Virus record (IMG/VR): IMGVR_UViG_3300032322_001011
Span: 1-64,000 of that record
Reading direction: 5' to 3' (one strand)
DNA: 64,000 nt
Source of the DNA: a virus
Position 1 is the first letter of the stretch. Each line of letters begins with the position of its first letter. Under the pieces are notes generated by a model, which had not been told where the DNA came from, did not search any database, and saw nothing but the letters and a program-made list of their open reading frames with translations. This document shows, piece after piece, positions 2,393-33,194 of this stretch. Made by a program: the position numbers and the translations under genes.

Positions 2393-2827
2393 TTAGCGTA
2401 TCTCGTGCTCTACGGGTAGTTCCCTATTCATGTCAGTGTCATACGCATACGCAAGGCGGTGATGGCCTTCAGTAATCAAAGTTTTTGTTTGGTCTGGGTG
2501 CATCTTTTTCTTTTTAAAATTGCTAATATATTTTTTATAATGAGTCAAAGTTATAGGTTCATTAATCCCATTTTCTGATAAGTCTTCTTCTAGGTTGCGA
2601 TACTTTGGGTTTGCGTAATCTTGATCTGCATAATACTCATTATCGTAAACGTCATCTAGTTTTGAGTTGTATGAATGGGTATCTGCAAATGGCCCATGTT
2701 CTCTTTTAATATCTTCGTCTTCACCAAAGCCAGCGTTAGAGATAGCGTCTTGTGATGAATATTCGGCTAGTTTATGAGCAGGCATAAACATCTGTAGTTG
2801 TTCTCCGTGAAGGTGCTGTTTACCCAC
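2393..2827 (-). CDS. ParB/sulfiredoxin-like domain protein
   Basis: 144 aa from a GTG start that overlaps the upstream TAG by one base (TAGTG). The C-terminal half has L-x-E-D-L-x-x-x-G-I-N-E-P-I, then 'ITEGHHRLAYA' (EGHHR at ~120-124), the ParB/Srx nuclease-domain signature also seen in free-standing phage proteins. The N-terminus (QHLHGEQLQMFMPAHKL) resembles the tag found on neighbouring genes. A later ATG at 2785 would give MPAHKLAEY. The domain may bind DNA or hydrolyse nucleotides; the activity is inferred only. Confidence 0.65.
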   Translation of the reverse strand: MGKQHLHGEQLQMFMPAHKLAEYSSQDAISNAGFGEDEDIKREHGPFADTHSYNSKLDDVYDNEYYADQDYANPKYRNLEEDLSENGINEPITLTHYKKYISNFKKKKMHPDQTKTLITEGHHRLAYAYDTDMNRELPVEHEIR

Positions 2828-3348
2828 TATTTAAGCCCTTTTAGGTTTCTTCTTGCTCTTATTCTGCCCTTATCACCAAGACCTGGAGCAGGTGCTTTCT
2901 TCCTTCGGCTTCCTTCGTCAAAGAATACTTCACCCTCTCCTTCATGCCCAATTCCAACAATGTGCTCACGAGGTACTAGGTATATATGCAAACGGTTGTT
3001 TTGTCCGTAGTGGTGGATACCAAACTCTTCACTATCTGGGTTACTACCTGTCCATTCAGGAAAAATTGAACCACTGCGTACTTTTGCCCCTTTAGGCACA
3101 TCACCTCTGTGGGTTACCTGAACCTGATCAGGTAGTTTAACCTCATCTCGTAGATGCTGTTGCATATTTTGGTAAGGCTCACCACGCCTATCTCTTACCT
3201 CTTGTAGATACGTTTTAGGCCACTTAGTGGTTCCGTACGACCATTGCTCCATGTCAGCCTCTGCCTCAGTACCTGCCAAATACGGAGCATGCCCCTGCTC
3301 ATAACTGTTGTAAAACTGATCCCAGTTAATACCTTCGTGCGCTGCCAT
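2827..3348 (-). CDS. Putative ADP-ribosyltransferase-like protein with N-terminal tag
   Basis: 173 aa beginning MAAHEGINWDQF, a tag shared with several neighbours. The order H80-R81-G82 (arginine strand), S92/S94, then E138-x-E140 in 'GHEGEGEVFF' fits the R-S-E layout of mono-ADP-ribosyltransferases with an ExE turn. The C-terminus is basic. If active it would modify host proteins, as phage Alt/Mod enzymes do. Fold assignment is by motif only. A TATACT box lies six bases before the ATG with no Shine-Dalgarno, suggesting leaderless expression. Confidence 0.5.
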   Translation of the reverse strand: MAAHEGINWDQFYNSYEQGHAPYLAGTEAEADMEQWSYGTTKWPKTYLQEVRDRRGEPYQNMQQHLRDEVKLPDQVQVTHRGDVPKGAKVRSGSIFPEWTGSNPDSEEFGIHHYGQNNRLHIYLVPREHIVGIGHEGEGEVFFDEGSRRKKAPAPGLGDKGRIRARRNLKGLK

Positions 3349-3354
3349 AAATCA

Positions 3355-3360
3355 AGTATA
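3355..3360 (-). promoter_or_regulatory. -10 box TATACT, likely leaderless promoter
   Basis: On the minus strand TATACT is followed by six bases and then the ATG at 3348. That spacing puts the expected transcription start on or next to the start codon. No clear -35 was seen. Confidence 0.55.
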
Positions 3361-3365
3361 GATTA

Positions 3366-3764
3366 TTAGTCAAAAGTAATAAATGGGTCATCTTCTTTTT
3401 TGACCACACGAACATAAGGAATATCAACATTTGCGTGAATAGCGGCTGCTACACGATGATGACCGTTATACATGAATGGGTTACCTGATTTAAACACCCT
3501 GGCGGATACTTGTACAGGCTCTTGGATGCCTTCTTTACTTACAGATTCTACAAGACTATTAAATGCTTCAGGATCTTTAGATTTGTGGGTTTCAACAACC
3601 TCATCCCAAGTTTGACCACCTTCACGAGGGTGTACCTGTTCTACAAACTGCTGTGGTGAAAGTGCTGGGTGCGCCCTTACTTTAACCCTTGAACCTAAAA
3701 CAGAAGACGTGAACGGCTTATCGGTAGATAAACCTTGTTCATACTTTTTACGTTCTGGGTTCAT
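3366..3764 (-). CDS. ParB/sulfiredoxin-like domain protein
   Basis: 132 aa. The sequence L-V-E-S-V-S-K-E-G-I-Q-E-P-V followed by 'MYNGHHRVAAAIH' (NGHHR ~100-104) is the ParB/Srx signature, second copy in this block. Residues 32-40 read HPALSPQQF, an internal version of the neighbouring N-terminal tag. The start ATG at 3764 follows TATACT by six bases. Probably a small DNA- or nucleotide-handling accessory protein. Confidence 0.65.
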   Translation of the reverse strand: MNPERKKYEQGLSTDKPFTSSVLGSRVKVRAHPALSPQQFVEQVHPREGGQTWDEVVETHKSKDPEAFNSLVESVSKEGIQEPVQVSARVFKSGNPFMYNGHHRVAAAIHANVDIPYVRVVKKEDDPFITFD

Positions 3765-3770
3765 AAAACA

Positions 3771-3776
3771 AGTATA
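3771..3776 (-). promoter_or_regulatory. -10 box TATACT, likely leaderless promoter
   Basis: TATACT on the minus strand, six bases, then ATG at 3764. Same layout as the neighbouring genes. Confidence 0.55.
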
Positions 3777-3781
3777 GAGGG

Positions 3782-4393
3782 TTACAAAGAAGTGTCTGGA
3801 GAAATAACCGTGTCAAAGGGGTCAGACACATCTAAGCCCTCTGGATACCAGATTTTAGTGTTTGTAATGTATTTAGGGCGCTCATCTGACAGTTTTACAA
3901 AAGACTCGTCAAACACGAGCATACGGTTTCCAGGCCAAGCACCTACACGACCACAATCTAAACGCACAAAGTTAAAGTGCTTGTGCTGATCAGGTGTTGA
4001 GGAATACATATCACCGTACGGGGCAGCCGTAAACATATACCTACCTGTTTCCCATATCCCTTCTTTCATATATACCTTCACGGATAGTTCAGACAACGCA
4101 CTGTACTCGTGGGTAGTGAAATCTTGCCCATAGCAACTCCATACCTGTAAATGGTCTAAAGGATGTTGGTGTACAGCAGGTGTATGAAAAGTCAAAGCAT
4201 GCAAGGGAACATGTTGCACTAGCGCACCGTTTTCTAAAAGTAGAGATACACCCCACGCCCTATTGGGGATTGCGGATAGACCATAAACTAAACAGGCGGT
4301 GTATTCACCAAACCCTTTTTCAAAGTTGTACAAAAACTCATTCTGGACATTACAGTAAAACGGTTTAGGGATATCTGTAATGTGTGTTGCCAT
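3782..4393 (-). CDS. Conserved phage protein of unknown function
   Basis: 203 aa. Contains 'IPKPFYCNVQNEFLYNF' near the N-terminus and 'HTPAVHQHPLDHLQVWSCYG' around residues 70-90. It resembles, from memory, a conserved protein of cyanophages and other aquatic phages with no assigned activity. The His/Asp/Tyr-rich central block (HQHPLDH) could be a metal site, but that is speculation. Start MATHITDIPK lies seven bases behind a TATACT box. Confidence 0.55.
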   Translation of the reverse strand: MATHITDIPKPFYCNVQNEFLYNFEKGFGEYTACLVYGLSAIPNRAWGVSLLLENGALVQHVPLHALTFHTPAVHQHPLDHLQVWSCYGQDFTTHEYSALSELSVKVYMKEGIWETGRYMFTAAPYGDMYSSTPDQHKHFNFVRLDCGRVGAWPGNRMLVFDESFVKLSDERPKYITNTKIWYPEGLDVSDPFDTVISPDTSL

Positions 4394-4400
4394 AGTGCTG

Positions 4401-4406
4401 AGTATA
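4401..4406 (-). promoter_or_regulatory. -10 box TATACT, likely leaderless promoter
   Basis: Minus-strand TATACT with a seven-base gap to the ATG at 4393; one base longer than its neighbours. Confidence 0.5.
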
Positions 4407-4411
4407 GATGG

Positions 4412-4750
4412 TTAGTCAAGTTCTCTCATTGTTCTGCGCCCAAAGTCAGTAATGGTGCAAACCCGTGCAGGGCGGTTACGGCTAGACATCTTTTCCCCAA
4501 CTTTCTGCACATACCCAGATTTAACCAACGATGTAATAACTCTCCACGGGCTGGATATATCTAGACCTGGAAACATCTGTTTAGCAATTTCATATAAATC
4601 TTCGTCTAATTTTGGTCTTTCCATTTGAAAACGATACGCTTCTAGCAGTTTCCACGGAGCAGTATCTTTTTCAATCGTTAGAAACGGCTCTTGATCGACA
4701 TGCTTTTTTGCATTGAAATGGTGTTGGCAATTTGGACAAGTTGTGTTCAT
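4412..4750 (-). CDS. Zinc-knuckle plus winged-helix DNA-binding protein
   Basis: 112 aa from the ATG at 4750 (MNTTCPNCQHHF). A longer reading to 4813 would run through the divergent promoter, so the inner start is preferred. The N-terminus has C5-P-N-C8 and HH. The C-terminal ~60 residues (SPWRVITSLVKSGYVQ...ICTITDFGRRTMREL pattern) look like a winged helix. It is divergently placed against the only plus-strand operon and shares overlapping -10 boxes with it, so it is a candidate local regulator. Confidence 0.55.
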   Translation of the reverse strand: MNTTCPNCQHHFNAKKHVDQEPFLTIEKDTAPWKLLEAYRFQMERPKLDEDLYEIAKQMFPGLDISSPWRVITSLVKSGYVQKVGEKMSSRNRPARVCTITDFGRRTMRELD

Positions 4751-4756
4751 AACCTC

Positions 4757-4762
4757 AGTATA
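4757..4762 (-). promoter_or_regulatory. -10 box for the minus-strand wHTH gene
   Basis: Minus-strand TATACT, six bases, ATG at 4750. It overlaps the plus-strand -10 box at 4761-4766 by two bases. Confidence 0.55.
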
Positions 4763-4766
4763 TACT
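4761..4766 (+). promoter_or_regulatory. -10 box for the plus-strand accessory operon
   Basis: TATACT, six bases (TGGAAG), then ATG at 4773. With the minus-strand box it forms the palindrome AAGTATATACTT-like core (4757-4767), so the two promoters probably compete for polymerase. Confidence 0.55.
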
Positions 4767-4772
4767 TGGAAG

Positions 4773-4946
4773 ATGCCAGCCCAAAACAACCTCAACGGAC
4801 AGCAGTTCCCCATTGAACCAGGAGCGTGGGTTGATGGTGAGCCTGTATCGCTAAAAGAAATCCATCAAGCAGCAGGCTTTACCAAGCGTGACCCTGCATA
4901 CCTTTTAGAGAAGCATAAAGCCAAACAAGCCAAAAGGAAGAAATAA
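4773..4946 (+). CDS. Small tag-bearing basic protein
   Basis: 57 aa. Begins MPAQNNLNGQQF, a variant of the block's N-terminal tag, and continues 'SLKEIHQAAGFTKRDPAYLL' and a Lys-rich tail (KHKAKQAKRKK). Its TAA overlaps the next ATG (TAATG), so translation of the Arr-like protein is coupled to it. It looks like a detached tag domain of the following enzyme. First gene of the plus-strand operon. Confidence 0.6.
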   Translation: MPAQNNLNGQQFPIEPGAWVDGEPVSLKEIHQAAGFTKRDPAYLLEKHKAKQAKRKK

Positions 4947-5413
4947 TGGGTAAAATCGTCTATCACGGCACGTTTAGTGATGAACCACCTCATGTTTATG
5001 GTAACCCTTTTCATACAGGTACGATGTCTGCTGCATATGAACGTATAGACGATGAAATGGATAACAATGGCGCTGGTGGACAATATGAACCAACTTATAA
5101 AATTCATAAATATGAAATCTCTGATAATGCTCCCACTTCCCGTAAGACTTGGGATGACCCAGGTGATTTCTTTGACCACGGTCCAAACCCTGTACCTGAG
5201 TTTAATCAGAAACGAATCTACCCATACAAAAACGAATATGAAGACAAAGGCTCAACTTCCTATGTCATTCCTTCTAACTTTGTAGGAAACCACGTAAAAC
5301 ACCTAGGAATACAATTCCAGCATTTCTCTCAAGGTGGGGACTATGGGCATGAAATTGGTGTAAACGCTATGTCTACTATGGTCGGTGGTAAACCACCATT
5401 TAAGGCTAAGTAA
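4946..5413 (+). CDS. Arr-like / 'YHGT...FHTGT' ADP-ribosyltransferase-fold protein
   Basis: 155 aa. Starts MGKIVYHGTF and has FHTGTMSAA at 22-30. The pair YHGT...FHxGTxxAA is shared with Arr-like and related ADP-ribosyltransferase-fold proteins common in actinophages. The rest is Tyr/His/Asp rich (DFFDHGPNP, YPYKNEYEDKG). Unlike its neighbours it has no N-terminal tag; the preceding overlapping gene carries one. Substrate unknown. Confidence 0.45.
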   Translation: MGKIVYHGTFSDEPPHVYGNPFHTGTMSAAYERIDDEMDNNGAGGQYEPTYKIHKYEISDNAPTSRKTWDDPGDFFDHGPNPVPEFNQKRIYPYKNEYEDKGSTSYVIPSNFVGNHVKHLGIQFQHFSQGGDYGHEIGVNAMSTMVGGKPPFKAK

Positions 5414-5940
5414 TGGCTGCACACGAGTCTATAAATCCCTGGGTACTTCGCCAACTAGCAACTCGTTATGAGAAAAAGAATGTTGCTATCAACTGGGATA
5501 ACCCAAACCGCAACGATCCTGAATCAAACCCTGATTTTAGTGATGAATCTGGCGTATGTTACGAATGTTCTGAGGATTTCGTGGAACGCAGCCATCTGGG
5601 TCACACAGGACTTAATCCAAAGCACGTTAAGCAAGTATCGCTAAACAATGATGCTCGTGGGATAGGACATTCGGCTGTAGAGGTAGGAACTACTCACGGC
5701 CCATATGTAGTGGATTTTACGTACAGGCAATACAACAATAAGGCTAAATCAGCCGTTGTTTTGCCCAAAAGAGGATATATACGCAAAATAGAAAAAGACA
5801 ACCCTGAAAACACTACTGAAGCAACAACATACAACAAAATAGGTATTGAAAAGCCTCGTATGGAAACTATACAAAACAACCCAGAAAACTGGAAACCACA
5901 GCAAACACCACCCGAAATGCGACCAAGTAGGAAGAAGTAA
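5413..5940 (+). CDS. Papain/transglutaminase-fold-like protein with N-terminal tag
   Basis: 175 aa, start MAAHESINPW overlapping the upstream TAA. C49 in 'SGVCYECS', H86 in 'GIGHSAVEVG' and D101 in 'YVVDFTYRQYN' stand in the order and context of the Cys-His-Asp triad of papain-like toxin and effector domains, including the VDFTxRQ strand. It could be a cysteine peptidase or deamidase acting on host proteins. The C-terminus is N/P/K-rich. Activity is inferred from the triad only. Confidence 0.5.
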   Translation: MAAHESINPWVLRQLATRYEKKNVAINWDNPNRNDPESNPDFSDESGVCYECSEDFVERSHLGHTGLNPKHVKQVSLNNDARGIGHSAVEVGTTHGPYVVDFTYRQYNNKAKSAVVLPKRGYIRKIEKDNPENTTEATTYNKIGIEKPRMETIQNNPENWKPQQTPPEMRPSRKK

Positions 5941-5973
5941 TCGCCCTTTACACGGCAAATTTTTTACTTAGCG

Positions 5974-5979
5974 TATAAT
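5974..5979 (+). promoter_or_regulatory. -10 box TATAAT, likely leaderless promoter
   Basis: TATAAT, six bases (TAGACA), ATG at 5986. A nearly identical string stands in front of the gene at 26592 on the other strand. Confidence 0.55.
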
Positions 5980-5985
5980 TAGACA

Positions 5986-6366
5986 ATGCCAGCCCACGAA
6001 AATCTAGGTGACCAGTTCAAGGTAGTCCATCAGAAACTAGGTGAAGGCGTGTCTGCTGGCAGGGGTTGGCATTCCCTCACGCTTCAAGACCCAAAAAAGG
6101 GTGTAGACCTCGCCCGTGTGTCTTTTGAACACTATAACGATCCAGATATGGAACCATCGTCAAGAATAGACATAGATTACCTAAAAAGCCACGTTGAGGG
6201 TCAAGGTCATGCTCAACGACTTATGGAACATATGTACAACCGCTACCCTAAATCACATATTGACTGGGGTTTGACAATCAACCCAGCATCAACCCATATT
6301 GCCTCAAAGTTTGAAAACAAGTACTACGACAGAACTTCATATCAACCAGAAGAGGATATGGACTAA
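5986..6366 (+). CDS. GNAT-like acetyltransferase with N-terminal tag
   Basis: 126 aa beginning MPAHENLGDQF. The segment 'IDIDYLKSHVEGQGHAQRLMEHMYNRYP' (~60-85) resembles GNAT motif A (Q/R-G-x-G-x-A). Following residues IDWGLTINPAS fit the next strand. Likely uses acetyl-CoA on an unknown substrate. Its stop overlaps the next start (TAATG). Confidence 0.55.
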   Translation: MPAHENLGDQFKVVHQKLGEGVSAGRGWHSLTLQDPKKGVDLARVSFEHYNDPDMEPSSRIDIDYLKSHVEGQGHAQRLMEHMYNRYPKSHIDWGLTINPASTHIASKFENKYYDRTSYQPEEDMD

Positions 6367-6683
6367 TGCCAGCATACGAGAGTCTTAGTCATCAATTTAC
6401 AGATAAAAAGGGTAAAGAACACACCATCCGTACAACCCCTTTTGGCGATGTTGAAGCCAGGAGTGGTAAAACGGTTACTGGTCGTTTAGGGGTCATGCTT
6501 GACTTTCAGCCTGAACAAGAACGAAAACACATGGTTTTTGGTATTGCTACAAACAAACGGTATCAAAACAGAGGTGTAGCCACAGCCATGTTTAACGCCG
6601 CCGAGTCACACTATGGCCCAATTGACATCGGTCCAACATCTTCTGATGAAGGTGAGAACTGGAAGAAGAAAATGGGTCAATAA
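6366..6683 (+). CDS. GNAT-like acetyltransferase with N-terminal tag
   Basis: 105 aa beginning MPAYESLSHQF. 'FGIATNKRYQNRGVATAMFNAAE' (~60-80) is a clear acetyl-CoA-binding motif A (Q-N-R-G-V-A). Shorter than a full GNAT domain, so possibly a minimal version. Coupled to both neighbours by overlapping stop/start codons. Confidence 0.6.
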   Translation: MPAYESLSHQFTDKKGKEHTIRTTPFGDVEARSGKTVTGRLGVMLDFQPEQERKHMVFGIATNKRYQNRGVATAMFNAAESHYGPIDIGPTSSDEGENWKKKMGQ

Positions 6684-7066
6684 TGGCTGCACACAAGAAC
6701 CTAAATGAATACCAATTCCGTTACCGACCCACTGGGGCTGTAAAAGACGAAGATGAAGAGTATTTTACTAGGCAAGGTAAAGAGGTTCCAACGGTGTATG
6801 ACCATAAGGTGACGGTAGTACACAAGCCAACAAAGGCTTTGGTTGGAGAAATGACATGGCCTAACGAGGGACCACTATACGGTATTGCAGTTGACGAGGA
6901 CCACGGGCGAAAAGGTATCGCTACCAACATGGTATTACATGCACAACGGGTATCTAGAGCATCTAAAGGTGCAATACCCCCACCTGAACGTGCTACCAAT
7001 GAAACAGAAGATGGTGAAGCGTGGGCTGACGCAATGGAAAGCAAAAGAATACCTGGTTGGTACTAA
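6683..7066 (+). CDS. GNAT-like acetyltransferase with N-terminal tag
   Basis: 127 aa beginning MAAHKNLNEYQF. 'LYGIAVDEDHGRKGIATNMVLHA' (~70-90) is GNAT motif A (G-R-K-G-I-A). Third GNAT in a row; the three are not close copies outside the tag and motif A. Last gene of the plus-strand operon. Confidence 0.6.
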   Translation: MAAHKNLNEYQFRYRPTGAVKDEDEEYFTRQGKEVPTVYDHKVTVVHKPTKALVGEMTWPNEGPLYGIAVDEDHGRKGIATNMVLHAQRVSRASKGAIPPPERATNETEDGEAWADAMESKRIPGWY

Positions 7067-20075: not shown

Positions 20076-20492
20076 TCAGCCCTCTAACAACCTCTTGAGC
20101 AACTTTTTTAGATCGGGCAATTTATCTCCAATATTGGGGATTTCTTCAATAAGCACATATTCTGTGTCTTCCATATCATCATGTGCTTCACAACAAATGG
20201 GGCAAATGCAGCCTTGACGATAACGTGTAACAGTCCCGTGTTCAGCAAGAAATTGTTGCTTTGAGTCTTTTTGCATTGGCAATCGTTCTTGTGGTGTTAG
20301 TCCACCCCACACTCCGTATATTTCTTTCTTACCGAACGACAAACAGTCTGCCCAAACTGGACAGACATTGCAGACTTTTTTTGCTATTGCGTAATTGATT
20401 TCTGGAGTTGTCGTTTCAAACGGTGGAAACCAAATGTCTCCGTGTTTTTTTCTACATAAAGAATCTGACATCCAGTCAGGTGTTGTTATCAT
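20076..20492 (-). CDS. WhiB-family protein (2) with a C-terminal 'HGT...GCxCxxC' extension
   Basis: 138 aa from ATG at 20492, overlapping the upstream TGA. WhiB core: C13, C41-x2-C44-x5-C50, G-V-W-G-G 60-64. The extension 'HGTVTRYRQGCICPICCEAH' (85-104) adds four more cysteines and matches an actinobacterial small-domain motif (HGTxxxYxxGCxCxxC) often found alone. It may be a DNA-contacting module fused to the Wbl domain. The C-terminus is charged and helical (LPDLKKLLKRLLEG). Confidence 0.85.
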   Translation of the reverse strand: MITTPDWMSDSLCRKKHGDIWFPPFETTTPEINYAIAKKVCNVCPVWADCLSFGKKEIYGVWGGLTPQERLPMQKDSKQQFLAEHGTVTRYRQGCICPICCEAHDDMEDTEYVLIEEIPNIGDKLPDLKKLLKRLLEG

Positions 20493-20881
20493 TCTGCTCC
20501 GTCTTCTACCCAATTTTGCAAGTCTCCTGATGACCAGAAGATTGGAAGACCTAAGCGTTGTGCTTCAGCAAGTTCATCAATATGCCAGTCAGCACCTTCA
20601 GCAATCTCATCAACAAAAACAGCATCGCATCGTTTCATTATCTGAAAGCAATACTCGTTGTAAAATTCGTAACCTCTTGGGTGACGCTTCTCCCAGTAGT
20701 AAGTGAGCGCAGGAATAACTGGCAAACAAATACCACTCGTGTATAAATCATCAGCAATGTCAATTGCTGTGTTCACGTTTTCTTCTGAATCGCTATGTAC
20801 GCAAGTACCAACGATGTATACGTGCGGCAAAAGGATGTGAGCAAGCGTTCTCATAAACTCTTTGTTTACTCCCTCTGCCAT
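20489..20881 (-). CDS. DUF4406-like / nucleoside deoxyribosyltransferase-fold protein
   Basis: 130 aa from ATG at 20881, with AGAGGA in front; a GTG at 20920 coupled to the upstream stop is the alternative. 'VYIVGTCVHSDSEENVNTAI' Rossmann-like start, 'MKRCDAVFVDEIAEGADWHIDELAEAQRLGLPIF' end, typical of DUF4406 and nucleoside 2-deoxyribosyltransferase-like folds. Could act on nucleotides or nucleotide signals. Confidence 0.55.
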   Translation of the reverse strand: MAEGVNKEFMRTLAHILLPHVYIVGTCVHSDSEENVNTAIDIADDLYTSGICLPVIPALTYYWEKRHPRGYEFYNEYCFQIMKRCDAVFVDEIAEGADWHIDELAEAQRLGLPIFWSSGDLQNWVEDGAE

Positions 20882-24992: not shown

Positions 24993-25172
24993 TTACTTAC
25001 CTGCCTTTTTCTTGGTTTGCTTTTTGGATTGACCTGCTTCAGACAATGCTATCGCAATTGCCTGCTTCTTGGAAGTAACCGTAGGGCCTTCTTTAGAACC
25101 TGAATGAAGATCGCCTTTGGCATATTCTTTCATTACTTTGGCAACCTTCTTTGCACTTTTTTTATCACTCAT
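24993..25172 (-). CDS. DUF6496-type small protein
   Basis: 59 aa. 'KVMKEYAKGDLHSGSKEGPTVTSKKQAIAIALSEAG' matches DUF6496 (K-V-M-x-E-x-K-x-G-x-L-x-S-G-S-x-x-G-P-x-V...QAIAIALSEA). Common in bacteria and phages; thought to be nucleic-acid related, unproven. Confidence 0.75.
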   Translation of the reverse strand: MSDKKSAKKVAKVMKEYAKGDLHSGSKEGPTVTSKKQAIAIALSEAGQSKKQTKKKAGK

Positions 25173-25485
25173 TATCAGTGTCCTTAAATGCTTGACCTAA
25201 TGTGTAATGAAAATCTGGATTCATTGCTAAATCCCACCGAACAGTATCATAGTCTACAGTCTTTGTTTGCTTTGGAATATGACCAAAACCAGAACCCAAT
25301 TCGTGAATTGTGGAATCTGGAAATCCCTTCAAAAGATCAAAAGTCTTTTGATGAAACAGTCTTTCATCAATTTGTCTTTTAGCATCACCAAACAACCCTT
25401 GACCAGCAGGGTGAAACTGGCGTTGATTTAGTTGCCGTTCAGCCTTCTTCTTGCGGAAATCCGCCATGTCAACGATGTCACCCAC
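25165..25485 (-). CDS. Hypothetical protein
   Basis: 106 aa from GTG at 25485 (ATG at 25467 is the alternative, MADFRKKKAE). 'RKKKAERQLNQRQFHPAGQGLFGDAKRQIDERLF' and an acidic end. Overlaps the DUF6496 gene by 8 bases. No family recognised. Confidence 0.5.
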   Translation of the reverse strand: MGDIVDMADFRKKKAERQLNQRQFHPAGQGLFGDAKRQIDERLFHQKTFDLLKGFPDSTIHELGSGFGHIPKQTKTVDYDTVRWDLAMNPDFHYTLGQAFKDTDNE

Positions 25486-25495
25486 ATTACAACCT

Positions 25496-25696
25496 TTATA
25501 GGCTAATTACTGGCTCAGTTGCCTCAGCAAGTGGGCTACGAGGGGTAACCCCGTATTGAGGTTGGAGAACCATATTGCGCTTGGTTACATACTCCATCTC
25601 AACAGCACCACCACGGCCTGGGGTAAGCGATTTATATGTTCCATCCATGATTCCTTTACGGAGATCATCGTTGGCAGAGCGTTCCATGTTTTGCAT
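25496..25696 (-). CDS. Small hypothetical protein
   Basis: 66 aa, MQNMERSANDDLRKG, with AAGGA six bases before the ATG. 'TKRNMVLQPQYGVTPRSPLAEATEPVISL' at the end. No family recognised. Confidence 0.5.
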   Translation of the reverse strand: MQNMERSANDDLRKGIMDGTYKSLTPGRGGAVEMEYVTKRNMVLQPQYGVTPRSPLAEATEPVISL

Positions 25697-25710: not shown

Positions 25711-26592
25711 TCAGTAGATATTAATTCTATCAAAATCAGCACCTTGTGCTGAAGCACCACCAGATTGTGCGTTTCCACCACGCATTCCACCAATTGAAAT
25801 AAATGGGTTGCCTGGAGAACCAGAAGTACCTGTTGAAGCACCACCATTTTTGGGGGCGTAAATTTGTGGAGCGTTGTTTACGTTTGCGCTGGTGTTTGTA
25901 TTGGTGGCAGCAGGTGGTTGCATCGCAGGCGTAGATTGTGCAGCAGTTTTAGGTTGACGTGGTTGACGAACCCTACCACCAGCAACACCTTGCGTTTGAA
26001 TACGCTGTTGTTGATCTGGGGTTCCATTCTTTGAAATGTCCGTAGCAAGAGCACGGCGAGCACGAGCAGTAGCGTTTCTACGATCCCTTTGCTCTTGGGT
26101 TAACTGTGGGCGTTGCCTGGGAGTTTGTCCTGCTGGATTTTGCCCTACTGGTTGCTGACCTGTTGGTTGTTGAAATTGAACTCCAGCAGATCCTCCACCA
26201 AAATCACCACGCCCAAGGTTTTCTTGGCTACCAAAAGTTGCTCGTTGGTCAAGGTTGAACGTATATGTAGTTGTTGGGCTTTGTGGACCTTGCTGTTGCT
26301 GTTGCTGTTGCTGTTGTTTTCTTCCACGACCCCAGAAACCACGACCACCACTACGACCAGCACGATAGTTGTAAAAGTTATTTCGGTTTGCAGGATTCAT
26401 CATCCATGCGTTCATACCTTGTGCAAGCATGCTGTCTTGTTGTGGTGGGCCAGAAGTTGCACCCCAATTACGTTGCATAGAACCAGCACCAGCGTTGTAT
26501 GGTTGTGGGGCTGCAAAGTTTCCACCTTGAATCTGCCCAGTTGGGGCAGACATATTCTGTTGAGGGACACCACCGAAAGGGTTATTAGCCAT
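25711..26592 (-). CDS. Disordered Gln/Pro/Gly-rich protein with shared phage motifs
   Basis: 293 aa, low-complexity throughout. A nine-Gln run at 93-101, then motif TFGSQENLGRGDFGGG (119-134), a basic stretch (QRDRRNATARARRALA) and TSANVNNAPQIYAPKN (234-249). The first motif recurs in the protein at 27992-30286 and the second in the tape measure. The ATG lies five bases behind TATAAT. Likely a virion-associated or assembly protein; inferred from the shared motifs. Confidence 0.55.
   Translation of the reverse strand: MANNPFGGVPQQNMSAPTGQIQGGNFAAPQPYNAGAGSMQRNWGATSGPPQQDSMLAQGMNAWMMNPANRNNFYNYRAGRSGGRGFWGRGRKQQQQQQQQQGPQSPTTTYTFNLDQRATFGSQENLGRGDFGGGSAGVQFQQPTGQQPVGQNPAGQTPRQRPQLTQEQRDRRNATARARRALATDISKNGTPDQQQRIQTQGVAGGRVRQPRQPKTAAQSTPAMQPPAATNTNTSANVNNAPQIYAPKNGGASTGTSGSPGNPFISIGGMRGGNAQSGGASAQGADFDRINIY
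26291..26314. repeat. Hexanucleotide microsatellite (TGCTGT)4
   Basis: Four perfect copies encode part of the poly-Gln run with alternating CAA and CAG codons. Length could vary by slippage. Confidence 0.7.
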
Positions 26593-26597
26593 GTCTA

Positions 26598-26603
26598 ATT
26601 ATA
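26598..26603 (-). promoter_or_regulatory. -10 box TATAAT close to the start codon
   Basis: Minus-strand TATAAT, five bases (TAGAC), ATG at 26592. Almost the same string as at 5974-5988 on the plus strand. It overlaps the upstream stop codon. Confidence 0.45.
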
Positions 26604-26922
26604 CCCAAAGACTTTGCATTGAGTATCGCCCAGAACCACTGAACTTATCATCGTTCATTTGTGCTCTCTGGAACATCACAGGAGCACCTGAAACCCATGA
26701 ACGGTATTGGGGTGTCCAACGATCCACTGACAAAATGTCCACAATCCCAAGTTCCTGCTTTAAAAACCCACGTGATTGTGGAAATGCTTGCTGTGGGACA
26801 ACAGGGCGAGTAGCACGAATAGTTTCTGGGTCAGAAATAGCAGACTGCAAAGCAATATCGGTAAGCAACTCTTCACGAGACTGCCACGGGCGTGTGCTTC
26901 TGTGGTTATCTACAGTAGGCAT
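26599..26922 (-). CDS. Hypothetical protein
   Basis: 107 aa, MPTVDNHRSTRPWQSREELL. Helical N-terminus, 'VVPQQAFPQSRGFLKQELGIVDILSVDRWTPQYRSWVSG' in the middle. Overlaps the upstream stop. No family recognised. Confidence 0.5.
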   Translation of the reverse strand: MPTVDNHRSTRPWQSREELLTDIALQSAISDPETIRATRPVVPQQAFPQSRGFLKQELGIVDILSVDRWTPQYRSWVSGAPVMFQRAQMNDDKFSGSGRYSMQSLWV

Positions 26923-27188
26923 TAGTGCTCTGGTGGGTAAAAGTTAGGGTCATAACTTGACCAATTTTCAGGTGCTTCAGGATGGTATTGTTCATCATTT
27001 GATTTAGCAACACCATCGTTGCCGTAAGCATCCAAATACGCTTCAAACTCTTCATCATTTTGCGTATGTTTTCTAGCCTGACGTTCACGAGATTCCATTT
27101 GCATTTCTTTTATTTCGTTATGCATGTCCATAGCATCACGCCCAACTTGGCGACCCATGTGATGACGAGTGTCTTGTCCTCTAGGCAT
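26922..27188 (-). CDS. MPRGEDT-tag protein (copy 1)
   Basis: 88 aa beginning MPRGQDTRHHMGRQVGRDA. After the tag: helical, charged ('EIKEMQMESRERQARKHTQND'), then Tyr/Pro-rich end. The first ~15 residues are shared by five proteins in this block; the rest is not. Confidence 0.55.
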   Translation of the reverse strand: MPRGQDTRHHMGRQVGRDAMDMHNEIKEMQMESRERQARKHTQNDEEFEAYLDAYGNDGVAKSNDEQYHPEAPENWSSYDPNFYPPEH

Positions 27189-27496
27189 TATTTGATTGGC
27201 TTTCCTCTAAATGATGGGTTATTGTTTTCATCCCATGAGAATAGCGGTTTCTTTTCAACTCTTCCAGTACCACCCTTGGCTTTATCAATCAAGTTGCGAG
27301 GAGCAATGTCAGACAGACGGGCTTCTTGACCTGTGTACTCAGGTGTGTTTGGATCATCCAAGTCAGGGTTTCCTGGAGGCCCAATCAATGCATCTTTAAT
27401 GCGTGACATCATTGAAGGCTTTGCCTTTTTAGCACGATGTGCATCAAGACTTACGATGCGAGCACCGTGGTGTCGGGTGTCTTCACCTCTAGGCAT
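27188..27496 (-). CDS. MPRGEDT-tag protein (copy 2)
   Basis: 102 aa beginning MPRGEDTRHHGARIVSLDA. Then 'KKAKPSMMSRIKDALIGPPGNPDLDDPNTPEYTGQEARLSDIAPRNLID'. TAATG coupling with both neighbours. Confidence 0.55.
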   Translation of the reverse strand: MPRGEDTRHHGARIVSLDAHRAKKAKPSMMSRIKDALIGPPGNPDLDDPNTPEYTGQEARLSDIAPRNLIDKAKGGTGRVEKKPLFSWDENNNPSFRGKPIK

Positions 27497-27702
27497 TATT
27501 GATACCTACTTTCTGGTCCAAGCACTTTACCGACAAAAGAACGCTGAACAGAAGGTTCATCTAGTTCAGAAACATGTTCAGCAATATCTGCTGGGTTGAT
27601 ACTTCCCCACACTGCTGTTTGCTGTTGGATAATACGATCAAGAATGGCTTCTTTGTCAACCCTACGTTTCTCGTGATTACGAGTATCTTCACCTCTAGGC
27701 AT
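27496..27702 (-). CDS. MPRGEDT-tag protein (copy 3)
   Basis: 68 aa beginning MPRGEDTRNHEKRRVDKEA. Then helical 'ILDRIIQQQTAVWGSINPADIAEHVSELDEP'. Coupled to the downstream gene by TAATG. Confidence 0.55.
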   Translation of the reverse strand: MPRGEDTRNHEKRRVDKEAILDRIIQQQTAVWGSINPADIAEHVSELDEPSVQRSFVGKVLGPESRYQ

Positions 27703-27713
27703 AAACTATTCCT

Positions 27714-27992
27714 TTATTGTGGTGTGTTTGACCACGTGTTTGTAATTGGGTCAATTAGGATGTTCCCAGTACCTTTTCGGCGTGGTGCTCCCTTAACATC
27801 ACCAGGATGCCCAATTTCACCTTCTGGTATTTGGTATGACGGGTGGTCACCGCTACCAGGACTTGTAAATTTGTCAGAACCTGATGTCTGGCGATCAATA
27901 AAAGTAGGAAGTCTTTCTGAAGACCTCGCAGCAAACCCTGAACGGTCAACCCTGCGGTTAGGGTGGTTATTTGTGTTTTCTCCTCTAGGCAT
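27714..27992 (-). CDS. MPRGEDT-tag protein (copy 4)
   Basis: 92 aa beginning MPRGENTNNHPNRRVDRSG. Then Ser/Pro/Gly-rich: 'SERLPTFIDRQTSGSDKFTSPGSGDHPSYQIPEG'. Start overlaps the stop of the large disordered protein. Confidence 0.55.
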   Translation of the reverse strand: MPRGENTNNHPNRRVDRSGFAARSSERLPTFIDRQTSGSDKFTSPGSGDHPSYQIPEGEIGHPGDVKGAPRRKGTGNILIDPITNTWSNTPQ

Positions 27993-30286
27993 TATGGCTT
28001 CTTTCTACGTGGGTTTTTTGGTTCAGAAGCAGGTGCTGGTGCTGGTGCAGAAGCAGGTGCTGTATTGTTTGTTGTTGGGCGACCTGCACTCTGTGCATTT
28101 TTTGCACGTGGGTGTGAAGGCTGACCAGAACTTGCAGGGCCACCCGTTGAAAGAACGGTTGCTCCCCTGTTTGTTGATGTTGCACGACCAGCAGTGCTCG
28201 CCACTGTTGGGGTAGTGTTAACAGTTCCACCAGTGATGTTTCCAAATGTGGATTCACCAATTACTTGTGGGGCAAAGTTTATGTTTGCGCTGTTATTAAC
28301 ATTGATTCCACCGCCGTTGCCACCACCAAAATCACCACGACCAAGGTTTGTTTGATCACCAAAAGTAACTGGTCCTGAAATGTTATAGAACGAACCAGAA
28401 CGACTTGATGGAGCAGACGGAGCAGGCGCTGAAGAACTTGGACCTGCTGGTGCTGGCATTGCACTTGGTTTTCCACCACCTGATACCGATGGGGGTGTCA
28501 TTGGTGTATTAGTTGCAGGAGTTGGTGTACCTCCAGCACGACCACCTTTTCCACCACCAAAGAACGTACGCATACGACCACCTAAACCTGGTTTTGAGGG
28601 TGAAGCAGGTGATGCAGGAGTTGGTTCTGTTTCCGAACCCCAATCATAGAAGTTCCCATCAGCAGGGCGTGGAGCACTCTCCGAAGTCCGCATTGTTCCG
28701 CCTTCACGAGCAGTACGAATTTGGCGAATACGCTCTGCGTTTGCCTTAGCCTCTGACGCAGTTCCGTAAACAGGTTCACTCGTTCCGCTCTTGTCAGTGT
28801 TAAGAATGAACTTACTGCCACCGCCAGTTGATGCTTTTGGAGTAGCACGTTCTGCTTCATCAGCATCAGAGCCAAAGCGAATTACACCGACCTCATCTCC
28901 GTAGGCATCAGCATCCAGTGCTGCTTCTTCTTTATCCCTAACAGCAGCCATTCCTGCTTCGCTCATTGCTTTTTCTTCTGGTGTCATTGAGTCAAGAAGT
29001 GCGCCGTACTTTTCTCGGTAATAACCTGGCTTGTTTTTGTCAGGTGCAGCAGTCTCAGCAGCAGTTTCTGCCGCAGTTGGCTTACTAACATTTGGAAAGT
29101 TGCGCTTCTTTTTAGTTTCGGCAGGTGCTTCCATTGCAGCATCTATCTCAGCCTGCTTCTGTGCAGTTTTTTCTGGGTCGTTAATATCTGCCATGTACTG
29201 TTCTATTGCGGTCTTCTTTGGTTCTTCTGGTGGTCGTGGCTTCTCACGTTGGGCAGAACGCCCTGTAGCAAGTTCTTCTTCAACTGCCTCTGGTGAACCC
29301 ACGGCAGGAGCGGAAGGCTTCTTTTTACCCTTACCTTTTGCTTTTGGAGCAGGAGCATCTGCTTCACCATCAGCCACTTCTCTAGTCCCACGGAAGTCAG
29401 GATGTGCTTCAATTTCTGCTTGAAGTTTTTCTCTAGCCTTACCAGTTGCTCTGCGAGTGTTTGATTTACGTGCTTTATCAAGCGCTGCTGCGGCTTCTGC
29501 TTCAGTTCCAGTAATGCCAGGCATTCGGCCTGCGGCAAAATCCTTTTCACTTTGTGAAGGAATGTATTCTGATTCGTTTTTCTTTTTCTTAGCCACAGGC
29601 TTCTCCGATGCTGAAGGTAATGCAGGTTCTTCTACTTTACCAGTTTTATTAGAAGTATTGAGAAGTGAATCTCTAGAATTCTCGTATGTTTCTTTTACCT
29701 TTAGTCTGTTTGCTTCTCTTTTTTTAGTTTCTTCTGCACCAGCCTTTGTAGGTTTGTGTTCATACAATGGTGTAGTTGGTGGGGGAGTAGGAAATCCAGT
29801 GCGATAAGAATTAACAGCATTTCCTATCCAGTCTGGGATTTCTCCACCTCTATGATCGTTTTGACCATATAGTTCATGGCCTGGTCCTTCACGAGTATCG
29901 TGTATGTCTAGTCCGTAACTGTAATAGTCATCAGGCCATTGATCAGGATTAACAGGGGTTGTTCGGTGTCCGTGTTCATTGACATTGTATTTTATGAAGT
30001 TACCTTCTTCATCAATTGGACCTGGACCAACACTACCAAGTGTTCCCCATTGGTACGGTGTTACCATTCCTTTTTCTAAAAGATCGGCTCGTCTGTCCCA
30101 TTTTGTTTTAAGCATGTCTTCTTCACCATGCCCTTTTGATTTCCAATATTCATCATGTGATGCACCAGACCTACGATGACGCATACCTAAGAGTTTGTTA
30201 ACTTCTGGTACGGGCATAAGGTCTGAAGGATCAACATCAAACCGTGTAAGGTTCGCTAATGGGTTATCTTGTTTTTTCTTAACCAT
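27992..30286 (-). CDS. Large disordered Ala/Pro/Lys-rich protein with shared phage motifs
   Basis: 764 aa. Residues 1-170 are more ordered, with 'MPVPEVNKLLGMRHRRSGASHDEYWKSKGHGEE' and 'IHDTREGPGHELYGQNDHRGGEIPDWIGNAV'. Residues ~170-600 are Lys/Glu/Ala-rich linkers. From ~640 comes TFGDQTNLGRGDFGGG and then NNSANINFAPQV, and the tail is PAPAPAS-rich. The motifs match the protein at 25711-26592 and partly the tape measure. Probably a virion or assembly scaffold; I do not recognise the family. Confidence 0.55.
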   Translation of the reverse strand: MVKKKQDNPLANLTRFDVDPSDLMPVPEVNKLLGMRHRRSGASHDEYWKSKGHGEEDMLKTKWDRRADLLEKGMVTPYQWGTLGSVGPGPIDEEGNFIKYNVNEHGHRTTPVNPDQWPDDYYSYGLDIHDTREGPGHELYGQNDHRGGEIPDWIGNAVNSYRTGFPTPPPTTPLYEHKPTKAGAEETKKREANRLKVKETYENSRDSLLNTSNKTGKVEEPALPSASEKPVAKKKKNESEYIPSQSEKDFAAGRMPGITGTEAEAAAALDKARKSNTRRATGKAREKLQAEIEAHPDFRGTREVADGEADAPAPKAKGKGKKKPSAPAVGSPEAVEEELATGRSAQREKPRPPEEPKKTAIEQYMADINDPEKTAQKQAEIDAAMEAPAETKKKRNFPNVSKPTAAETAAETAAPDKNKPGYYREKYGALLDSMTPEEKAMSEAGMAAVRDKEEAALDADAYGDEVGVIRFGSDADEAERATPKASTGGGSKFILNTDKSGTSEPVYGTASEAKANAERIRQIRTAREGGTMRTSESAPRPADGNFYDWGSETEPTPASPASPSKPGLGGRMRTFFGGGKGGRAGGTPTPATNTPMTPPSVSGGGKPSAMPAPAGPSSSAPAPSAPSSRSGSFYNISGPVTFGDQTNLGRGDFGGGNGGGINVNNSANINFAPQVIGESTFGNITGGTVNTTPTVASTAGRATSTNRGATVLSTGGPASSGQPSHPRAKNAQSAGRPTTNNTAPASAPAPAPASEPKNPRRKKP

Positions 30287-30294
30287 ATACAGCC

Positions 30295-30909
30295 TTAGTC
30301 AAATAAAGATGGTTGTTGAAATACAGGAAATTGTTGAGCAGAAATATGAGTTTTAGCGTTTGCTACAGAGTTATCACTTATGGATTTTGTTACTGGTCCA
30401 TATTTTTTAGATCCTTCAAGTTCTTCTTTTGGCTTTAACAAATCACCTGCTGGTTCATACGTTCCAGGAGATGTTTCTTTAAAGTTCCATTCACCATTCC
30501 CACGCATTCCCCACCAACTACGCATACCGTGTGGTTTAAGTTGCTTTATGATTTCAGCACCTTTGCGCTCTGCCATACTTTCAAAATCTGAAAAAGGAAC
30601 ACCATTTTCTTTGTGCATCCTTGTTGCCATATCTTCTAAATGAAGTTGGTTTTCACGGTGAGTGCTGTATTTTTCCCAAAAGTCATCGTCTGAACCATCA
30701 CCAATAAATGCGCTATTTGATTTACTGACTGCTTCCATTGCATTTTTATACTCAGGATTAACTTTGCTAAATGCTTGATCCCGTAATTCAGTTGCCAACC
30801 ATAGTTTGTGGCTTTTACCCCAAGAATCTTCTTGTTCTTGTGTTTTTGAAGGAGTCCAATATGCGGCTTCGCCAGTACCCTTTTTAGACCGTTTTTTCTT
30901 TTCAGCCAT
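30295..30909 (-). CDS. Hypothetical protein ending in a clamp-binding-like motif
   Basis: 204 aa, basic N-terminus (MAEKKKRSKKGTGEA), helical centre, 'LKPHGMRSWWGMRGNGEWNF' in the middle. The C-terminus reads ISAQQFPVFQQPSLFD; QPSLF resembles the DnaN-binding pentapeptide QLxLF. No family recognised. Confidence 0.5.
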   Translation of the reverse strand: MAEKKKRSKKGTGEAAYWTPSKTQEQEDSWGKSHKLWLATELRDQAFSKVNPEYKNAMEAVSKSNSAFIGDGSDDDFWEKYSTHRENQLHLEDMATRMHKENGVPFSDFESMAERKGAEIIKQLKPHGMRSWWGMRGNGEWNFKETSPGTYEPAGDLLKPKEELEGSKKYGPVTKSISDNSVANAKTHISAQQFPVFQQPSLFD

Positions 30910-30912
30910 TAT

Positions 30913-31413
30913 TTATCTCCAAGAAGGGCGAAGCGATTGGAGTTTGGCACGGCGTTCAGCGTCAATATAGTCTTGATTAGGTTGGTCAATAACCCGTGGG
31001 ATTCCTTTAGGACCAACTTTTCCGTCATTAGTCAATTGTACAGGCACTGCGCCTGGGGGTGCGAATTTCTGACCTCGTGACTCATGGGCGATCCCAGTCC
31101 AAAGATTGAACTCGTTAGGCCATAGGTAATCGCCTTGGTTAATACGCTCACCTTTGTGGACACCACGAGAATATTGACGGGCGTTATTGCGACTAAGCGT
31201 TCCAAGAATCTTGTCTTGTCGGCGGTTAGACGACATTGTTCCAAGGTATCCGTCTGGATACGTAGTATCTGAGATAGTCCGATAACCAGCAAGTTGATAA
31301 TCCTTGTTGTTACGGAAAACAGGAGCAGGACCAAATTGGTTTTGGGTTGCACCACCAGAAGCCTCAGATGGGCCTTGCCAATGGTTAAACGAGGTCTGCG
31401 AAGACCCAGCCAT
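30913..31413 (-). CDS. Hypothetical protein
   Basis: 166 aa, Gly/Asn/Gln/Arg-rich, with 'YQLAGYRTISDTTYPDGYLGTMSSNRRQDKILGTLSRNNARQYSRG' and 'RVIDQPNQDYIDAERRAKLQSLRPSWR'. Composition like virion-associated or assembly proteins. Coupled to copy 5 of the tag genes. Confidence 0.5.
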   Translation of the reverse strand: MAGSSQTSFNHWQGPSEASGGATQNQFGPAPVFRNNKDYQLAGYRTISDTTYPDGYLGTMSSNRRQDKILGTLSRNNARQYSRGVHKGERINQGDYLWPNEFNLWTGIAHESRGQKFAPPGAVPVQLTNDGKVGPKGIPRVIDQPNQDYIDAERRAKLQSLRPSWR

Positions 31414-31625
31414 TAGTTGTACCAGCCGTTCCTGTACCTATTTTCACGAGACTCTTCATATGATTCTTGATACTCAAAAGGCTTTCTAGGTGGCTGCTCG
31501 TTATCGCCATACCCACCAGTCTTAGTTCCTGGTTTCTTAGGTGGAGTCGTACCACTACCACCAGTAGAAGTTTGTGGACCTACTTGGCGCTTAGGGTGAT
31601 TGCGAGTATCTTGTCCTTTAGGCAT
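31413..31625 (-). CDS. MPRGEDT-tag protein (copy 5)
   Basis: 70 aa beginning MPKGQDTRNHPKRQVGPQT. Rest is Gly/Thr/Pro-rich, then 'FEYQESYEESRENRYRNGWYN'. Separated from the other four copies by about 3.4 kb but with the same start. Confidence 0.55.
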   Translation of the reverse strand: MPKGQDTRNHPKRQVGPQTSTGGSGTTPPKKPGTKTGGYGDNEQPPRKPFEYQESYEESRENRYRNGWYN

Positions 31626-32489: not shown

Positions 32490-32780
32490 CTACCTCACTA
32501 CGGGTTTGAAGGATATAGCGGAGATATTCTCTCCATTCTCTCCAATAATATCATCAAAGCCAACAACAAAAGATAGGTCAATGCCACGTGGGGCAACAAA
32601 GCCTCGTGCGATAGCACAGGCTTTAGCGGCTTGATTTACAGCGCTTGCGCCAATAGCCCGAATCTTGGGCAAATGACCAGCCACAATAGAACGAGCAAGG
32701 ATAGAACCCACACTCTGGGGGTTACTTGATCCTGATACTTTCAGGACATCTTCAACTTTTGTATTCAATTCTTGGGACAT
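32490..32780 (-). CDS. spoVS: SpoVS-like protein
   Basis: 96 aa. 'VSGSSNPQSVGSILARSIVAGHLPKIRAIGASAVNQAAKACAIARGFVAPRGIDL' follows the stage V sporulation protein S family almost motif by motif. SpoVS is an Alba-like fold with a role in sporulation and septation; its phage role is unknown. It sits at the junction of the tag block and the DNA-metabolism genes. Confidence 0.9.
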   Translation of the reverse strand: MSQELNTKVEDVLKVSGSSNPQSVGSILARSIVAGHLPKIRAIGASAVNQAAKACAIARGFVAPRGIDLSFVVGFDDIIGENGENISAISFKPVVR

Positions 32781-32822: not shown

Positions 32823-33194
32823 TTATGCGTAACCAGCATCCTTGAGCAATTTAAGCATGTCTTCTAACGGCATAATTGCATAGGATTCACCAACAGCAGC
32901 AGCACCTTTTCCTGGTCGTTTAACCACCAATAGAGGTACTCCACAAGTCAATCTAGATGCCTGCTCCACAGTGGCATTGAGCCATTCACTTAGTTTGAAT
33001 GACTTCTGATTCTTGCACTGAATGGCAAGTTCTTTGGCAGGTATCTCACGAGCCTGAACCACACCGTGGATGTCACCAGCATCATTCTCCCCAGCAAGGG
33101 CTGTGCGGCGAGCATTACAGAAATCTTGCTCTTTGAGGTAGTTAACAATAAGGGTTTCAAACGATGTCCCTTTTGCTTTGTGTTTATTTCCCAT
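32823..33194 (-). CDS. Putative Holliday-junction resolvase-like nuclease
   Basis: 123 aa. 'KGTSFETLIVNYLKEQ' (E), 'RTALAGENDAGDIHGV' (D) and 'ELAIQCKNQKSFKLSEWL' (Q-x-K) follow the E...D...(E/Q)xK order of PD-(D/E)XK nucleases of the HJR type. Likely resolves or nicks branched DNA during replication and recombination. Confidence 0.65.
   Translation of the reverse strand: MGNKHKAKGTSFETLIVNYLKEQDFCNARRTALAGENDAGDIHGVVQAREIPAKELAIQCKNQKSFKLSEWLNATVEQASRLTCGVPLLVVKRPGKGAAAVGESYAIMPLEDMLKLLKDAGYA

Follow-up and report, generated by a model that had tools for sequence, protein, structure and literature searches.

A short N-terminal tag shared by unrelated small proteins in a hypervariable phage gene cassette

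The tagged genes and their neighbours

On the minus strand of a phage record of 84.7 kb, five genes encode proteins that start with a common N-terminal tag and continue into unrelated bodies. The window analysed here comprises positions 1-64000 of this 84,695-base IMG/VR record and has a G+C content of 0.439. Tagged protein 1 (26922..27188, 88 aa) carries the tag MPRGQDTRHHMGRQVGR at 27138-27188, tagged protein 2, of the 'ARIV' family (27188..27496, 102 aa), carries MPRGEDTRHHGARIVSL at 27446-27496, and tagged protein 3 (27496..27702, 68 aa) carries MPRGEDTRNHEKRRVDK at 27652-27702. In tagged protein 4 (27714..27992, 92 aa) the tag MPRGENTNNHPNRRVDR occupies 27942-27992, and in tagged protein 5 (31413..31625, 70 aa) the tag MPKGQDTRNHPKRQVGP occupies 31575-31625. 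An earlier note had described five proteins with a common N-terminus and nothing else obvious in common, starting at 27188, 27496, 27702, 27992 and 31625; these starts were confirmed on the minus strand. At positions 2-15, 7-10 of 14 residues agree in all ten pairs, whereas the other 103 ORFs in a greedy gene set of the window (108 ORFs) agree at no more than 6/14 across 5253 pairs. Only four of these pairs reach 6/14, and three of them belong to another leader family, MxAHExLN. No significant similarity was observed between the bodies of the five (best E 0.31), in agreement with the note.

Nearly all tagged genes are located in a single hypervariable cassette whose neighbours on both sides are conserved. 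A Holliday junction resolvase, a SpoVS-like protein and a 166 aa protein make up one flank, and proteins of 107 and 66 aa the opposite one; in the window all of these are encoded on the minus strand. The RusA-like resolvase (32823..33194) matches phrog_244 (E 8e-25). The protein upstream of the locus at 32490..32780 matches phrog_35646, 'sporulation protein' (E 1.6e-16), which we take to be SpoVS-like. The 166 aa neighbour (30913..31413), for which AF2 gave no usable fold (pLDDT 51), is also present in Streptomyces phages BRock, LuckySocke, GiJojo, pSt2308 and Alone3. The 107 aa neighbour (26599..26922) has a BRock-group counterpart by eye; a tblastn search of a relative gave none. By eye, the 66 aa neighbour (25496..25696) corresponds to an 82 aa protein of the BRock group. 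The cassette of the window also contains two minus-strand genes without the tag, which encode a 764 aa low-complexity protein (27992..30286) and a 204 aa protein (30295..30909). The locus lies downstream of the replication genes, apart from the head gene module, and is co-directional with the structural genes. Two further features were observed nearby. Two otherwise different low-complexity proteins (25711-26592 and 27992-30286) have in common the motif NLGRGDFGG with its similar flanks, and a DNA-binding protein at 23952-24398 matches phrog_3636 (E 1e-26) and is presumably Dps-like.

The tail sheath is most similar to that of BRock and its relatives (32-34% identical). A published account classes BRock as a virulent myovirus (PMC7453282). 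The host is probably an actinobacterium, because WhiB-like residues were seen by eye at 20076-20513 and Streptomyces is the host of the relatives. The available part of one report (PMC10202952) concerns different phages, of 39 kb, from freshwater Nanopelagicales. The BRock group shares with the tag phages the tail sheath, the SpoVS-like protein, the 166 aa protein and, by eye, the 107 aa and 66 aa flanks, but has no tagged cassette between its counterparts of the 166 aa and 107 aa proteins. The profile search in actinophages proposed in the earlier note was carried out on four cultured Streptomyces relatives and returned no tag except one weak match in BRock (E 0.008).

Boundary, spread and exchange of the tag

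The tag has the consensus M[AP][RK]GxDTxxHPxRxVx[RK] and ends sharply after 17 residues. Its information content is 1.6-4.5 bits at positions 1-15, 0.6 and 1.6 bits at positions 16 and 17, and at most 0.33 bits from position 18 onwards, so the length of about 15 residues assigned earlier was nearly exact. A second subtype reads GNDERHNPxRRP or GNDESRNGARIV. The family extends beyond the five proteins first recognized and comprises 149 proteins from 50 populations of related phages (repeats removed, with identical 30-residue starts within one population dropped); the five of the earlier note belong to a far larger set. Removal of proximal homologues within a population left 137 proteins for the selection tests. 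At least 46 body families follow the tag (single linkage, E<1e-3), and this count is conservative because shared small modules merge families.

These proteins were collected in several ways. Degenerate DNA patterns for the tag matched 10 and 12 viral stretches, and relatives were found through the conserved neighbours (215 and 90, of which 80/215 and 80/90 were kept). The reference alignment of tagged proteins comprised 107 of 129. Over 95,133 possible starts in the relatives' loci (repeats included, L001 and L002 set aside), the scores of the tag profile were two-peaked, with 416 starts above 5 and few just below 0. In whole records, the profile found tag matches in 15/15, the record studied here included, and in 20 of 24 further ones, where 48 of the 50 matches fell within or bordered the single locus. 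The tag is fixed behind the start codon (133 ATG and 4 GTG among the 137 proteins). A survey of internal tags and variant leaders, from which L001, L002 and L020-L049 were dropped as repeats of the same contigs, revealed a few tags that are preceded by an IVDMxEYRxRK-like motif and start roughly 20 residues into the protein. In the window, a protein at 25165-25485 starts with MGDIVDMADFRKKKAERQ, resembling the IVDMxxFRxRK motif that precedes the internal tags of relatives.

The tag is restricted to this one phage group in the collections searched. The pattern HHPNRKV occurs in 83 stretches of viral contigs, and outside the group only chance matches were found. No known family matching the tag was found, a PDB profile search gave no match up to E 1, and tblastn of the consensus tag peptide against the phages collection gave one match (E 6), which was taken as chance. 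A literature search found no description of this tag. Mimicry of a host peptide was considered and rejected: a pattern scan of bacterial and archaeal genomes returned four stretches, none of them a start-linked tag, and the one that scored above 9 with the tag profile has no start codon and was taken as chance.

The tag is exchanged between bodies. Similar bodies may follow the tag, a variant leader or a different leader, or lack a leader altogether. The body SxNSHMEExYQGKDPAEIV follows the tag in L011 and a MPTDHRGRPIGDP leader in L017 (30/41 identical), and the body of the window protein starting at 27702 has a counterpart in L236 behind the variant leader MAGPRDDGTSPEDKAHHQGRKV (26/48). L189 and L120 have in common the stretch ENFxSGPPAGWTMNNMVKGLVG, preceded by two leaders and followed by two different C-termini. 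L107 and L236 encode proteins that are 69% identical over 121 aa, with the tag in L107 only. In L012 an extra segment separates the tag from a body that directly follows the tag in L025. A weaker case is the window protein starting at 27496, in which the stretch after the tag is similar to that of L112 behind a different leader (15/29). The edges of the swaps lie near the tag in the exchanged leaders. The variant leader, M(A/S)G(H/P)RDDGTxAEDKAHHPNRxVSR, replaces the first residues of the tag in L112, L117, L120, L129, L160, L236 and L242. A further leader, M(A/P)xxHRGxxI(A/G)DP, was observed on several proteins adjoining the cassette (L018 12138-12724, L107 6932-7533, L150, L157 and L017 583-789).

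Since conservation ends at residue 17 over 46 body families and leaders are swapped, the tag is not a fragment of a longer homologous domain, the possibility that would have spoken against the earlier note. The same boundary and the occurrence of similar bodies without the tag or behind another leader make it highly unlikely that the five are ordinary paralogues whose bodies have diverged beyond recognition, even though the genes are adjacent in an operon-like run and in 72 of 137 tagged genes the start is overlapped by a stop codon. We regard the first 17 residues as a transferable recognition peptide, a conclusion that is well supported.

Selection on the tag

Within one phage, tags on unrelated bodies agree at 0.596 of positions (171 pairs), compared with 0.479 between phages (8873 pairs). 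None of 5000 permutations reached this level (null 0.481, sd 0.011); the permutations ignore phylogeny except for merging contigs with a shared exact 300-mer, so that shared tag ancestry within a clade may contribute. Between phages, close orthologues, identified by direct matches that begin close to the tag, have an agreement of 0.705 (133 pairs). A lower agreement of tags on the same body across genomes (0.504) than on unrelated bodies of the same genome (0.582) was dismissed as an artefact of loose single-linkage families.

The earlier note stated that the codons of the tag vary and concluded that selection acts on the protein. In the five tags of the window the first statement holds at most positions and fails at codon 2, which is CCT in 5/5, and at codon 3, where all four Arg residues are encoded by AGA (4/4). 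For unrelated pairs within a phage, residues 4-15, where shared, have a codon identity of 0.48, while codon usage predicts 0.42 (the excess has a 95% interval of 0.014 to 0.105). The identity rises to 0.54 (0.43 expected) in 82 pairs with at least nine agreeing tag positions and to 0.62 (0.43 expected) in the 26 most similar tag pairs; no excess was observed in the 89 least similar pairs. In unrelated pairs from different genomes, codons 4 and 6-15 are close to the usage expectation. Because codons stay near this expectation while the residues are kept, selection acts mainly on the protein, which bears out the second statement. Codons 2, 3 and 5 differ in this respect: their identity within a genome is 0.79, 0.69 and 0.90 (expected 0.34, 0.37 and 0.62) and exceeds expectation between phages as well. 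This excess may represent ordinary preferences near start codons.

Some recent copying of the tag has taken place alongside conservation at the residue level, and could account for part of the similarity of tags within a genome. This copying, the identity of codons 2, 3 and 5 and the swap edges near the tag would all fit a DNA element, such as a translation start signal or a recombination site, that is translated by chance. The behaviour of codons 4 and 6-15 across genomes, where residues and not bases are conserved, largely refutes this explanation, and we consider it very improbable.

Possible functions of the leader

The bodies behind the tag are short, with a median whole-protein length of 83 aa (n=137), and the fraction of disorder-promoting residues is 0.645 in tagged proteins compared with 0.518 in 11 control proteins. 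AF2 gave no usable fold for the tagged 'ARIV' protein (pLDDT 58). Among 107 tagged proteins, Pfam recognized double zinc ribbons in two, C2H2 in one and, spuriously, a hormone peptide in another, PHROGs gave three weak matches, and neither collection revealed a known anti-defence or anti-restriction family. Short motifs recur within the bodies (DxxPxGIPRP, HPSxxP and NPDLDDPNTPEYTG), and the C-terminus LDPWDPEDIxEEQTLKEERLKKGHY recurs on different bodies.

A precedent for such an arrangement exists in phage T4. As far as the available parts of two sources show, the T4 internal proteins have no homology except in an N-terminal leader that directs packaging, and their bodies block different GmrSD nucleases (PMC12373910, PMC3012670). 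According to the same texts, these proteins (Ip1-Ip3, with a capsid targeting sequence) are small, hypervariable and encoded in a hotspot, as are the tagged proteins here (PMC12373910, PMC3012670). A leader common to otherwise unrelated small proteins (46 body families, boundary at residue 17) and a hypervariable accessory locus between conserved genes were both found in the tag phages. The presumed difference between the T4 leader and the tag lies in the sequence itself. Because a leader on unrelated, fast-changing small proteins in a hotspot reproduces the anatomy of the T4 internal proteins, we favour, tentatively and at somewhat less than an even chance, the reading that the tag is a capsid-loading leader for injected accessory proteins. 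On this view the tag would bind one partner and bring to it a varying collection of small accessory proteins, most of them disordered. The partner may be a head component, in which case the peptide would dock these proteins into the forming head. The docked proteins would then enter the host along with the DNA, and their variable bodies might act early on the host as anti-defence proteins, for example against restriction. Greater likeness of tags within than between phages is what docking of all of them on a single, phage-specific partner would predict. The position of two tagged genes outside the locus, within the MxAHExLN cluster with its GNAT- and ParB-like members, also counts in favour.

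For phage P1, the available part of the source states that 30 residues from the N-terminus of DarB are enough for capsid loading but 9 are too few, so that there, too, an accessory protein is marked for the head by a short segment at its N-terminus (PMC9024508). The Dar proteins are described in that text as having no consensus N-terminus, unlike the one tag found here on dozens of bodies (PMC9024508). The comparison with T4 also has its limits, in that T4 internal proteins are packaged and injected, whereas the tagged proteins are known from sequence alone, and the tag phages, unlike T4, use more than one type of leader and in some proteins carry the tag internally. Several observations count against capsid loading: the cassette lies outside the head gene module, some tags are internal, no known anti-defence family was recognized among the 107 tagged proteins scanned, recent copying may explain part of the likeness of tags within a genome, no cleavage motif was identified, and no T4-type prohead protease was detected among 10 head-region proteins scanned, where an HslV-family peptidase was the only such match. 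This peptidase (L003 5028-5660, record 68028-68660; phrog_1040, E 1e-23) is encoded directly upstream of the portal gene and is a possible head protease. A literature search found no proteomics paper on member phages. A link to the scaffold was considered, as a 259 aa scaffold-like protein between the portal and the major head protein starts with MAKGNDE, like one tag subtype; its orthologues start with MAKQSNDE, MAKRETDE, MPKTVEDT or MSEQ (N-termini from 76 of 80 loci), and the resemblance was attributed to chance.

The position downstream of replication genes rather than among head genes could instead indicate a motif that docks onto a partner inside infected cells, either a phage assembly or a host protein, with rotating takeover factors that gather at one hub and are never packaged. 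The short, disorder-rich bodies, the lack of a fold in the member modelled with AF2 and the short motifs shared between bodies agree with this explanation. No candidate hub was found, however, and the genome pattern scan described above gave no start-linked tag. We consider such a docking motif doubtful and less probable than capsid loading.

The co-direction of the locus with the structural genes and the short disordered bodies are also compatible with a tag that anchors proteins on the virion exterior as capsid or tail decoration. This is unlikely, since the very high turnover of bodies and the presence of zinc ribbons would be unusual for decoration proteins, and no PHROGs similarity to decoration families was observed. 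Removal of the leader as a propeptide, or its use as a degradation signal that sets protein stability, would suit its fixed position behind the start codon and the HslV-family peptidase beside the portal. No conserved cleavage motif is apparent after residue 17, and an internal tag does not fit a removable leader; we judge this explanation more improbable still.

Phage accessory genes are mostly small, evolve fast and resist interpretation by homology. A marker leader allows such genes to be listed by motif across a large group of uncultured phages, as with the T4 internal proteins. If capsid loading is correct, the tag would provide a compact cargo signal and point to many candidate injected proteins; should it prove wrong, the swaps between leaders and bodies still illustrate a modular construction of new phage proteins.

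The window contains another leader family, MxAHExLN, at 2827-7066, with members at 3348 on the minus strand and at 5413, 5986, 6366 and 6683 on the plus strand. One of them (6366-6683) matches GNAT in Pfam (E 4e-4), relatives in L372 and L373 match ParB-like families, and two proteins of the cluster gave no match in the phages collection. Like the tag, MxAHExLN is an N-terminal leader on mixed bodies, but its sequence is unrelated and some of its bodies have GNAT- or ParB-like domains. Among the best N-terminal pairs listed, none joins the two families, and the earlier description of the tag as a second, independent one is upheld. It is possible, if speculative, that exchangeable leaders (the tag, the GHRDDGTxAEDKAHHPNR variant, HRGxxIADP and MxAHExLN) act as barcodes that direct shuffled, motif-bearing small proteins to specific sites within the virion or the infected cell, with the leaders of each phage co-adapting with its own receptors. 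The earlier note had suggested a different destination for each of the two tags. Two tagged genes were found outside the locus, MARGKNEAHNLNRKVGR (L372 4651-4833, minus strand) and MAKGKPEENNPKRRP (L373 4726-5001), in two of the 24 further records searched. Both lie among MxAHExLN-type genes, which speaks mildly against different destinations.
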